64,000 bases of DNA from contig NZ_JAJFZN010000001.1 in assembly GCF_020731145.1 (NCBI RefSeq), positions 558,001-622,000 of the forward strand, read 5' to 3'. The notes below the pieces were generated by a model. That model saw only the letters and a list, made by a program, of their open reading frames with translations, ran no database searches and was not told where the DNA came from. Below, piece after piece: positions 33,402-37,803 of this stretch (positions are counted from its first letter, which is position 1; each line of letters starts with the position of its first letter). Source of the stretch: Sneathiella sp. HT1-7. GTDB taxonomy: Bacteria > Pseudomonadota > Alphaproteobacteria > Sneathiellales > Sneathiellaceae. Both the position numbers and the translations under genes were made by a program.

Positions 33402-33620
33402 CTAGTTAACCAGAAACGCCTCAAAATCATTCTGGCGAGCGACAACCATTGCGGCATCGGCTGATTTTTCTTCTCCGAGTTGCTGGCCATTGGCGGCGAA
33501 AATGCGAAACACAACGGCATCGTTTTCTCCAACGGCACGGATATAAGCCATATCCATAGATCCCAGCATACCAAAGGCAGCGGGACTTAGCTGGCGGAGA
33601 GTAGCTTCCTGATATTGCAT
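33402..33620 (-). CDS. DUF1150 family protein
   Basis: A 72-residue protein that matches the DUF1150 family of alphaproteobacteria (SPAAFGMLGSMDMAYIRAV, then a short beta-rich end). Its function is unknown. It lies 33 bases downstream of hsp20 on the same strand, the usual arrangement, so it is probably heat-induced with it. Confidence 0.82.
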   Translation of the reverse strand: MQYQEATLRQLSPAAFGMLGSMDMAYIRAVGENDAVVFRIFAANGQQLGEEKSADAAMVVARQNDFEAFLVN

Positions 33621-33653: not shown

Positions 33654-34112
33654 TTATTCAATAAATTCTGACGAATTGACGGGCTTCATTTCTTTTTTTG
33701 AACTTTTCTTTCTGATCTTGATTTGATGGCTTTCAGTTTTCGGCGTGGGCAACTGCAATTCAATATGTAGAAGGCCGTTTTCCATATCGGCGCCGGTAAC
33801 TTTCAACCCTTCCGCAAGAACAAATTTACGCTGGAACTGGCGGGCCGCGATTCCACGGTGAAGAAACACACGCTCCGACTCGTCCTTCTGCTTACCATGA
33901 ATGATAAGTTGGTTTTGTTCCAGTGTTATCTGAAGGTCGTCCTCGGTGAAACCGGCAACAGCAAGCGTGATGCGCAACTCTCTATCGCCCATCTGCTCAA
34001 TATTATAGGGCGGATAACCTTCCTTCGAAGATTTCGACAACTGGTCGAGAATCTGGTCAAACCGGTCAAAGCCGAGCATCAGCGGGTGATTAAATGATGA
34101 TGCACGCGGCAT
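33654..34112 (-). CDS. Small heat-shock protein Hsp20/IbpA
   Basis: A 152-residue alpha-crystallin-type chaperone. The N-terminus PLMLGFDRFDQILDQL is typical of the IbpA class; the alpha-crystallin domain spans about 38-130, and the conserved AxxxxGLL pattern is seen as GADMENGLLHIEL. It binds unfolding proteins during heat stress. Expression appears heat-controlled twice: an RpoH-type promoter and a ROSE-like hairpin that hides the ribosome site. Confidence 0.92.
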   Translation of the reverse strand: MPRASSFNHPLMLGFDRFDQILDQLSKSSKEGYPPYNIEQMGDRELRITLAVAGFTEDDLQITLEQNQLIIHGKQKDESERVFLHRGIAARQFQRKFVLAEGLKVTGADMENGLLHIELQLPTPKTESHQIKIRKKSSKKEMKPVNSSEFIE

Positions 34113-34116
34113 ACAT

Positions 34117-34140
34117 ATTCTCCTCCAAATGAGCGAGCCT
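34117..34140 (-). promoter_or_regulatory. ROSE-like RNA thermometer over the hsp20 ribosome site
   Basis: On the minus strand TCGCT (34136-34132) fits the ROSE consensus UYGCU and can pair with AGGA (34124-34121) of the Shine-Dalgarno, leaving G34134 unpaired. C34137-G34120 and C34131-G34125 extend the stem; the loop has five bases. The start codon is six bases past the SD. This is the family's typical layout, within a leader of about 80 bases. Confidence 0.65.
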
Positions 34141-34200
34141 GCTGCCGATCAGTTATTAACCGCAGCTTTGAATAGCCCAATAAGGCACTATCATTAAGTC

Positions 34201-34229
34201 ATGTAAGGATTCCCTGCCCTAGCATCAAG
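34201..34229 (-). promoter_or_regulatory. RpoH (sigma-32)-type promoter of hsp20
   Basis: On the minus strand CTTG (34229-34226) and CTTACAT (34207-34201) are 18 bases apart, matching the alphaproteobacterial heat-shock form CTTG-N17/18-CYTATNT except one base. Transcription would start near 34194. Confidence 0.6.
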
Positions 34230-34292
34230 GTAGGGTTTTACAAATTTCATGCGCACGGTATAAGTCGGTCATAACTTTCTACAAGAACAATA

Positions 34293-35816
34293 ATGGAAAA
34301 TAGAATGAGTATCGACCCGCAAAAGCAGGATTTAAAGATTGGTATCGTCGGCGCCGGCGCAATGGGCCGGGGCATCGCACAGGTATCCGCAACCGGCGGC
34401 ATGCTGGTTTATATTTTCGACGCCGCTGAAGGTGCCGCGGCAACAGCGAAAGATTTTATCACTTCCATGATAAGTCGTTCCGTTGAAAAAGGCCGCATGG
34501 AGAAAAGTGAAGGCGACGCAGCGATTGGGCGCCTTCATGTTGCTGAGGGCATCGACGGACTTTCGGAGTGCGATCTGGTCGTCGAGGCCATTGTCGAGAA
34601 TATCGACATCAAACAGAAGGTGTTCCAGCAACTCGAAAATATTGTCAGCCCAGACACCATTATCGCCTCCAACACATCAAGTATCCGAATTTCCTCCATA
34701 GCCTCGGCCTGCACCCATCGCGGTCGGATCGCGGGCCTGCATTTCTTCAACCCGGTCCCGCTGATGAAGCTGGTCGAGGTCATTAATGGCACAGACACAA
34801 GCGAAGATGTAACCAAGGCGCTTGAAGTCATCGGAAAGCGGATGGGCCGCGTTCCCGTCGTGGTCAAGGACGCACCCGGCTTCCTGGTTAATCTTGGTGG
34901 CCGTGCCTATACGACGGAAGCACTGAGGATCGTCTCTGAAGGCGTTGCAACACCGTTCCAGGTGGACGCCATCATGCGAGAAGCCTGCGGTTTCCGCATG
35001 GGCCCGTTCGAGCTTATTGACCTAACGGGGATTGACGTTAATTTTCCGGTCAGCCAGATTATTTACAACGGCTATTTTCAGGATAAGCGCCTGTCTACCT
35101 ATCCTCTGCATGAAAGCATGATGGAGGCGGGTCGCCTTGGTAAAAAAACCAAGGCCGGTTTTTACGAATATACCGAGGACAGCACAATCATCCGCCCGGA
35201 CGTAGAAGAGAAAATCTCCGCGAGCCCTGCGCGTCGTGTTGTGCTCGCGGAGCCTTCTGCCGCGCTGGATGGTTTGCTGCGGGATCTGGGCGTGAGTGTT
35301 CTTTCTGAGGACGATGGCACATCGCCTATTCTCGCTGATCCAATTGGAGAAGACTGCACGGCACTATGTGTCCGCCTCGGTCTTGATCCGAAACGTCTTG
35401 TCGCCATCGATACCCATACAGGCGTTTTCTCCCGCGCGACTGTTATGGCCGCCCCCGGTGCCAACGAAGAAATCGTTCAATCCGTTATGGCAATGTTGAG
35501 CGAGGTTTCCGGCGGCGTGACGCGTATCAAGGATAACCCGGGTTTCGTTGCCCAGCGTATCCGCGCGATGATCGCAAATCTTGGCTGTGAAATGGCCCAG
35601 ATCGGCGTTGCCACTCCGGAAGATATCGATAAAGGCATGAAGCTGGGGCTCAATTACCCATTAGGTTCAGTTGAGCTTGCAGATAATATGGGTACCCGGA
35701 ATTGCTTGACGATTATGGAAAAGCTGCAGGAAATTACCGGGGAAGATCGTTACCGACCAAGCCAATGGCTCCGCCGTCGCGCACTTCTGGACCTACCAAT
35801 CCACACATTGGATTAA
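34293..35816 (+). CDS. 3-hydroxyacyl-CoA dehydrogenase (double 3HCDH, PaaH-like)
   Basis: A 507-residue NAD-dependent dehydrogenase. The Rossmann motif IGIVGAGAMGRGIAQVS starts near residue 16, SNTSSIRIS and LHFFNPVPLMKLVEVI are the catalytic-domain landmarks, and two C-terminal 3HCDH domains (about 205-300 and 420-500) are present. It oxidises 3-hydroxyacyl-CoA in fatty acid, phenylacetate or butyrate metabolism; which one is not clear because no thiolase or hydratase is near. ATG 34293 or 34305 could be the start. A hairpin terminator follows its stop. Confidence 0.88.
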   Translation: MENRMSIDPQKQDLKIGIVGAGAMGRGIAQVSATGGMLVYIFDAAEGAAATAKDFITSMISRSVEKGRMEKSEGDAAIGRLHVAEGIDGLSECDLVVEAIVENIDIKQKVFQQLENIVSPDTIIASNTSSIRISSIASACTHRGRIAGLHFFNPVPLMKLVEVINGTDTSEDVTKALEVIGKRMGRVPVVVKDAPGFLVNLGGRAYTTEALRIVSEGVATPFQVDAIMREACGFRMGPFELIDLTGIDVNFPVSQIIYNGYFQDKRLSTYPLHESMMEAGRLGKKTKAGFYEYTEDSTIIRPDVEEKISASPARRVVLAEPSAALDGLLRDLGVSVLSEDDGTSPILADPIGEDCTALCVRLGLDPKRLVAIDTHTGVFSRATVMAAPGANEEIVQSVMAMLSEVSGGVTRIKDNPGFVAQRIRAMIANLGCEMAQIGVATPEDIDKGMKLGLNYPLGSVELADNMGTRNCLTIMEKLQEITGEDRYRPSQWLRRRALLDLPIHTLD

Positions 35817-36160: not shown

Positions 36161-36523
36161 CTATTTCGATGATTTACGGATTTCAATTGGCTGACCATGC
36201 GGCGTATGTTCCGACGCTTCTCGCCACTCTGCCTTTCGCGCAGAAAGCTGTTCAGGCGTGAGTAATGCTTTTTGATCGACGATTTTTTCTAGTGCCGAAA
36301 GCCAGCATTGGTAATAGGCAGCATTCCCGACACCTTGCCCCGACACTGTATCCGCTGCGATTTCAGCACCGAATACTTCCGCCCATTCACTCCAGCTAAA
36401 TTGGCCCCCTTCATTCAGTTTGACTGTCATGGCAAACGCCTGAGCTTGCCATGGCTCATCAAACACAGGTCCCTCTTCATCCTGCGGGATATTGATGGAT
36501 TGCAGAACTGGATCAAGCGCCAT
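36161..36523 (-). CDS. Nitrile hydratase accessory (activator) protein
   Basis: About 120 residues, matching the small beta-like activator that loads cobalt into the alpha subunit by subunit swapping (pattern GPVFDEPWQAQAFAMTVKL, WSEWAEVFGAEI, YYQCWLSALEKIV). The start at 36523 overlaps the beta gene by 11 bases; a longer open frame upstream runs inside the beta gene and is not typical. The order alpha-beta-activator is that of cobalt nitrile hydratases. Confidence 0.87.
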   Translation of the reverse strand: MALDPVLQSINIPQDEEGPVFDEPWQAQAFAMTVKLNEGGQFSWSEWAEVFGAEIAADTVSGQGVGNAAYYQCWLSALEKIVDQKALLTPEQLSARKAEWREASEHTPHGQPIEIRKSSK

Positions 36524-37190
36524 CGCCAGTCGCCTCCAGATAATCATCCCACAGATCGATATAAACATAGTCGCCTTCGGTGCCATCCGGCCCCCAAAGT
36601 TCCGTAGAGGCAAACTTCACACTGTAGAGAGGTTGCGGATTGCTTTTGCCATGTGCGCTTGCATCCGGAAAGATATGCGGACCATAGTCGGCAAAGATCT
36701 CGCCAACATGCCCTCGTGCATACCGTGGTAGGCGCGTATGCCCAATTGGGTGGAAATTTTTTGCCCGCACTTTGTCCCCTACCTTGAAACGGCTCGGCTT
36801 TCCATCCTCAGTAATATAGGTTCCGCCTTTGTCCATAACTGTATCGACGTCCCGGCCTTTCAGGGCCGGACGTGGCGTCGTTACCGGCGCCGGCGGAATA
36901 TCGCCTGAGAGCTCCTCTTCCGAAATCATGCCTTTTTCACTCAGTATTCGGATAAGGCCATCCAGCCAGATTTCATAGTAGCTACTGGCAAGATATGTCG
37001 CCGGATCCATGCGTTCCCGGGCATGGCGTGATTCATCAAGATTGCGAACGCCCACAGCAGAAATCGCATTGTTCATGGCAAACATCCGCTTTTCCCAGTC
37101 TGCATGGAAAACCGGTTCATTCTCCTCAAGTTCTATCGGACCCATGCCATGCATACCGCCCATATCATGAATACCATCCATATCAGACAC
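36513..37190 (-). CDS. nthB: Nitrile hydratase subunit beta
   Basis: A 225-residue beta subunit starting [19 protein letters not shown], a typical opening. The C-terminal SH3-like barrel (from about residue 130, [20 protein letters not shown] to [11 protein letters not shown]) packs on the alpha subunit. With the alpha subunit it hydrates nitriles to amides. Its start overlaps the alpha stop by eight bases. Confidence 0.94.
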
Positions 37191-37803
37191 CCTCCACCGT
37201 AGCCGGGCTATCCGCTTCGCGCGTGCCGATCATGCTGTCACGATTGACAAGCTCCGCAAGTGCCCCTTCATCTAAGCCTTCCGTGCCTTCAGGTCTTTTT
37301 GGGATAACAAGATAACGGGTTTCCGCCGTACTATCCCACACCCGCACCTCCTGACTCTGCGGAAGCTGGGTTCCAAACTCCTCCAGTACTTTTCGGGGTT
37401 CACGAACAACGCGCGCGCGATAGGGCGCGGATTTATACCAGACCGGCGGCAGGCCCAGTACTGGCCAAGGGTAGCAAGAGCATAATGTGCAGACTACGAC
37501 ATTGTGGATATTGTCCGTATTCTCGACCGCCACCAATTCTTCCCCTTGCGCACCTGTAAACCCAAACTCAGCGACTGCCGAAGTCGCATCTTTCAAAAGC
37601 CGCTCGCGATACGCCGCGTCCACCCAGGCTCGTGCGACGACTTTTGCGCCATTCCTAGGCCCCACCTTGTTTTCATATCTGTCAATCAAAGCATCGAGTG
37701 CCTCTGCCTCAACAAGCCCTTTTTCAATAAGCAGGGATTCAAGGCTCTTCACCCGAAGAACTGTCTCCGGTAGTGGATCGCCATGCTTGTGTTTAGCTGC
37801 CAT
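37183..37803 (-). CDS. nthA: Nitrile hydratase subunit alpha, cobalt type
   Basis: A 206-residue catalytic subunit. The metal-binding claw [10 protein letters not shown] holds C105, C108, S109 and C110; threonine between the first cysteines and tyrosine after the last mark the Co(III) type rather than the Fe type. Two of these cysteines are normally oxidised after translation. It is the first gene of the operon, divergent from the CMD-family gene. No amidase or aldoxime dehydratase gene is close by. Confidence 0.94.

Follow-up and report, generated by a model that had tools for sequence, protein, structure and literature searches.

Double control of small heat-shock genes by RpoH and ROSE elements is established, and the surveys that describe it name class A (IbpA-type) genes (PMC3989490; PMC2873474; PMC4166951). 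The stated hallmark of ROSE-like elements is a U(U/C)GCU motif on the Shine-Dalgarno (SD) sequence, and in Pseudomonas ibpA, short ROSE-like stems that leave the AUG free give temperature-dependent translation (PMC3669281). A different small heat-shock gene, Caulobacter shsp2, is followed by larA, whose product is a DUF1150 protein and an allosteric activator of Lon; the shsp2-larA operon is reported to be directly sigma32-regulated, and an RNA thermometer is not mentioned (0 occurrences) in the paper that describes it (PMC10665427). Here, we describe the region upstream of the orthologous gene pair in Sneathiella sp. HT1-7, within a window of 64,000 nucleotides (the whole stretch of DNA that was analysed; contig NZ_JAJFZN010000001.1, positions 558,001 to 622,000). 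It is highly probable that this region provides sHSP2-larA-type operon control with a double heat response, through sigma32 and through an RNA thermometer. The leader family is of interest for how widely it occurs, for its absence from Rfam and for its link to the larA operon.

Promoter, leader and three hairpins

The initial annotation had proposed that the hsp20 leader combines an RpoH-type promoter with a ROSE-like thermometer. Its promoter, CTTG-N18-CTTACAT on the minus strand with a start near 34194, is correct in coordinates and motifs on direct reading of the sequence, while its leader length of about 80 bases requires a small correction to about 82 nt (Table 1). The extent of the leader is predicted from the promoter position, from which transcription is expected to start at approximately 34194. 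The alphaproteobacterial sigma32 promoter consensus consists of a CTTG -35 element and a C-rich, TA-containing -10 element at a spacing of 17–19 nt. The hsp20 promoter agrees with this consensus as a sequence match enriched over shuffles: 21 of the 23 family leaders, counting the window's, contain the pattern where shuffles predict 0.12, as do 31 of 78 leaders from other Alphaproteobacteria, where 0.23 are predicted. Across the 23 readable family leaders, the window's included, the -35 element is CTTGATG (CTTGATC in one), followed after approximately 15 bases by a TACAT-like box, and every one of the 23 contains (C/T)TCGCTC-loop-GAGGAG. The spacing is near-constant, given that hairpin 3 begins 88–96 bases past the -35 box in family leaders. 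We infer use of the promoter by sigma32 by analogy with the orthologous Caulobacter operon, which is reported to be directly sigma32-controlled. An alternative start codon at 34116 (ATGTATG) lies in another frame and lacks conservation, and the hsp20 start was therefore placed at 34112.

Table 1 Features of the hsp20 locus, in window coordinates
Feature	Position	Strand	Details
RpoH (sigma32)-type promoter	34201–34229	-	-35 CTTG 34229–34226, N18, -10 CTTACAT 34207–34201; from sequence
Predicted hsp20 5' leader, ~82 nt	34113–34194	-	Predicted start to the base before ATG
Hairpin 1	34171–34192	-	GAUAGU-(G)-CC uuauu GGGCUAUU; 8 pairs, bulged G34186; covariation in 6 of 8 pairs
Hairpin 2	34141–34166	-	GCUGCGGUUA auaac UGAUC-(G)-GCAGC; varies among clades; minimum-energy fold
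Hairpin 3 (SD hairpin)	34120–34137	-	CUC-(G34134)-CUC auuug GAGGAG; anti-SD UCGCU on SD AGGA; core nearly invariant, flanks covary
Shine-Dalgarno GGAGGAG	34120–34126	-	8 nt to ATG counted from AGGA; from sequence
hsp20, small heat-shock protein	33654–34112	-	152 aa; orthologue of alphaproteobacterial sHSP2; PF00011 3.4e-17
DUF1150 protein, LarA relative	33402–33620	-	72 aa; PF06620 2.7e-05, 24.6 bits (cut-off 25)

Pair counts back three hairpins in the leader, a number within the two to four of ROSE-like elements, and in the 3'-most of these UCGCU pairs imperfectly with the SD, leaving out G34134. This is the pairing first proposed, and it can be read directly in the sequence as TCGCT (34136–34132) against AGGA (34124–34121). 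The flanking C-G pairs that were said to extend the stem are C34137-G34120 and C34131-G34125, which bring it to 6 bp around the loop AUUUG. Promoter, leader length and 3' hairpin agree with one another as claimed, and that interpretation is largely right. The counterpart of hairpin 2 covaries in the model alignment, in which the window's own clade is poorly aligned at this hairpin.

A bulged G beside a CC/GG or C/G step is present in each of the three hairpins in many relatives, in the forms UGCC-loop-GGG, UGCC-loop-GGA and UCGCU-loop-AGGA, as if a small module had been repeated.

The genome has a size of 3.83 Mb, and its best named relative in the genome collection is a Sneathiella metagenome genome with a 96% identical Hsp20. 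Between hsp20 and a divergent 3-hydroxyacyl-CoA dehydrogenase gene (34293–35816) lies TTTACA-N16-TATAAG (34238–34265, plus strand), which is partly conserved in close relatives and is probably the sigma70-type promoter of the dehydrogenase gene. Further along the window, two adjacent minus-strand frames (36513–37803) resemble the beta and alpha subunits of nitrile hydratase, the alpha-like one with a VCTLCSC that we take to be the cobalt-type metal motif.

Conservation, covariation and distribution of the leader

The hsp20 leader is conserved beyond chance. The UCGCU/AGGA core is nearly invariant and covariation comes from the flanks of the core and from hairpins 1 and 2. Near-invariance is expected of a core that contains the Shine-Dalgarno, and hence we tested the flanking bases instead, choosing the core blind to the flanks, which yielded a hairpin in 84 of 101 leaders. 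Pairing of the outer flank is seen in 76 of these 84, where shuffling predicts 40, and pairing of the inner flank in 81, where it predicts 65; in both cases 0 of 5,000 shuffles are as high, statistics that are inflated by sequence kinship. The outer flanks are C-G in 45 leaders, G-C in 27 and A-U in 3, and the inner flanks C-G in 49, U-A in 25 and U-G in 6. Double changes also occur within one family, as in the GUCGCUU...AAGGAC and AUCGCU...AGGAU of Rhodobacteraceae. Covariation of the stem in related genomes, on which the initial annotation had made its proposal depend, is thus present at the pairs flanking the core.

A covariance model (R1) was built from the leaders of six relatives placed in register, with the window excluded. 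It matches the window at 24.8 bits, the sole match above 4 bits in its neighbourhood, and in 387 kb it has 47 matches, among them the window and another 40 leaders, every one located upstream of hsp20 as expected. Among the 47 matches, 16 of 20 pairs have changes in both partners, and the paired share of cells is 97% versus 84% after shuffling and 47–61% with slid partners; because the structure guided this alignment, the pair count leans towards it, a bias of which the flank test is free. RNAalifold on a MAFFT alignment recovered hairpin 1 only, missing hairpin 3 because differences in loop length misalign it, which the in-register R1 remedied. The span of the window matched by R1 and by a second model, R2, is 34204–34117 on the minus strand.

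Promoter and leader recur in 22 family relatives and in many other alphaproteobacterial orthologues. R2 was built from 38 leaders, the window's included, and the hsp20 leader is its only match up to E 10 when the entire genome is searched (E 5.7e-8, with the window in the training set). Among 387 genomes sampled from the class Alphaproteobacteria, R2 detects the leader in no fewer than 71, with one match each, and these are missed by the library (Rfam) model. The count is a lower bound because the filters are strict and many Rhodobacterales leaders of the GUCGCUU...AAGGAC form score low. All 30 class matches that were fetched as loci lie directly before hsp20. In a phylum-wide sample of 199 genomes, R2 matches 5. 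The single one of these from beyond the class (L156, E 0.009) is in a stretch without hsp20 and was taken as chance.

Relation to ROSE elements and known thermometers

The Rfam model of ROSE, RF00435, with which the initial annotation had proposed to scan the leader, has no match in the window leader at the gathering score (45 bits) or up to E 10, and none in 20 orthologous leaders. The leader nevertheless shares several features with RF00435 elements such as that of Bradyrhizobium hspA and the rhizobial IbpA-type leaders. It precedes a small heat-shock gene, its hairpin 1 has the same topology of six pairs, a bulged G and two pairs (xGCC-loop-GGx), and its 3' hairpin sets U(U/C)GCU against AGGA. 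It differs from them in that the last stem has 6 bp and ends at the SD, whereas the long last stem of the ROSE model covers the AUG; in the CTC/GAG clamps around the core; and in a gene of the sHSP2 type rather than the IbpA type. The description as a ROSE-like thermometer is largely right: covarying flanks and an independent covariance model speak for it, but the Rfam ROSE model does not match. Because of this failure to match, and because the stem stops short of the AUG, we describe the leader as ROSE-like and not as a member of RF00435.

On the leaders of IbpA-type paralogues in sister species, RF00435 scores up to 40.7 bits (cut-off 45), and these leaders are in turn the best matches of R2, at 22.7 to 13.3 bits. 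This cross-detection, together with the shared topology of hairpin 1, indicates a relationship between the two leader types. The Sneathiella genome itself has a second, IbpA-type hsp20 (G000:C5:337313-337693, L031, minus strand; 52% identical over 115 aa), preceded by a ROSE-type leader of its own that ends in UUGCU...AGGA. The leader also resembles the Pseudomonas ibpA thermometers in the U(U/C)GCU on the SD, the short 3' hairpin and the unpaired AUG (PMC3669281), although those have two hairpins before a gammaproteobacterial ibpA, in contrast to three before an alphaproteobacterial shsp2.

Proposed heat control of hsp20 and the larA operon

In the mechanism that we propose, sigma32 (RpoH) would start transcription at CTTG-N18-CTTACAT and the leader would fold into its three hairpins, the last pairing UCGCU with the SD AGGA with one G left out. 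At low temperature the SD hairpin would keep ribosomes off hsp20, and a rise in temperature would loosen the imperfect stem and let hsp20 translation begin. The SD hairpin probably melts with warmth, and hsp20 translation would then depend on temperature; energy calculations do not settle either point.

Nearest-neighbour folding is ambiguous, given that the SD hairpin depends on the chosen 3' end. The minimum-energy structure of 34194–34107, the RNA that the initial annotation had suggested folding, has a z of -0.97 and is without hairpin 3, its competing fold using the GCC at the start codon and leaving the SD in a loop. When the RNA ends at the start codon, hairpin 3 is present, with an occupancy that falls from 0.99 at 25 °C through 0.96 (37 °C) to 0.89 (45 °C). 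Because the outcome flips with the 3' end, minimum-energy folding was used as evidence neither for nor against the hairpin. The competing fold requires a GGC ahead of UCGCU that is missing in relatives such as L008, and hence we do not regard it as the evolved structure. For some members of the Rhodobacteraceae, hairpin 3 comes out almost unoccupied in the energy model.

A first alternative is that the structured leader serves chiefly to bind Hsp20, which would repress its own translation until denatured proteins draw it away, so that protein damage would be sensed, or both damage and temperature. E. coli IbpA does repress its own translation via a ROSE-like leader, with an essential Arg93 that is conserved in alphaproteobacterial IbpAs (PMC10474464). 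The R91-x3-R95-K96 spacing in the window's Hsp20 equals that of R93/R97/K98 in E. coli IbpA, the residues needed for self-repression, with R91 unchanged throughout the family alignment. However, the match is one of spacing and not of structure, self-repression has been demonstrated for gammaproteobacterial IbpA only, and it would supplement the thermometer more than displace it; as a main explanation, we consider it unlikely.

A second alternative, which we regard as more improbable still, is that the SD hairpin lowers hsp20 translation at every temperature and that heat induction is wholly transcriptional via sigma32. The sigma32-type promoter fits such a view, as does the modest melting computed between 25 and 45 °C: the stem energy of hairpin 3 changes from -6.0 kcal/mol at 25 °C to -3.4 kcal/mol at 42 °C, and the SD is still mostly paired at 45 °C. 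However, the same motif is thermosensitive in other small heat-shock leaders (PMC3669281), and the unpaired G34134, which costs approximately 4 kcal/mol (-10.0 for the stem without it versus -6.0 kcal/mol, at 25 °C), is conserved in an otherwise perfect potential stem, which suggests selection for a weakened, openable hairpin. That the conserved block is a DNA-level signal or chance complementarity to the SD, with no RNA structure, is hardly credible and largely refuted: the barely varying UCGCU/AGGA core has little covariation of its own, but its flanks covary as CG, GC and AU, hairpin 1 covaries, and the slid and shuffled controls collapse.

Under the double control by sigma32 and an RNA thermometer that we favour, the gene downstream of hsp20 is also of interest. 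An Hsp20 match was found in 25 of 25 relatives searched (in two, the IbpA-type paralogue only), and 121 of 133 loci have a LarA-like frame close to hsp20, with a few genomes counted twice. The DUF1150/larA relative in the window probably shares an operon with hsp20. It has an AAGGAG site of its own, so that control by the thermometer may or may not extend to LarA. Replacing the last histidine of Caulobacter LarA by aspartate reduces Lon binding and abolishes Lon activation (PMC10665427). Ends of the VSVH type with this terminal histidine are the commonest elsewhere in Alphaproteobacteria, and 89 of the 121 frames end in H. In contrast, the LarA relatives of Sneathiella (the window's, and L004-L025) end FLVN, YLVS or FLVC and are thus without the histidine that Caulobacter LarA needs for contact with Lon, so that Lon activation is not to be assumed there.

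It is a possible but doubtful extension that the entire shsp2-larA operon is controlled across Alphaproteobacteria by a family of ROSE-like thermometers that Rfam lacks, gating the chaperone and, through coupled translation, the Lon activator. The leader described here would extend ROSE-type control from IbpA-type (class A) genes to the sHSP2-larA operon. This suggests that LarA, so far studied at the transcriptional and proteolytic level, may sit behind a translational heat switch.
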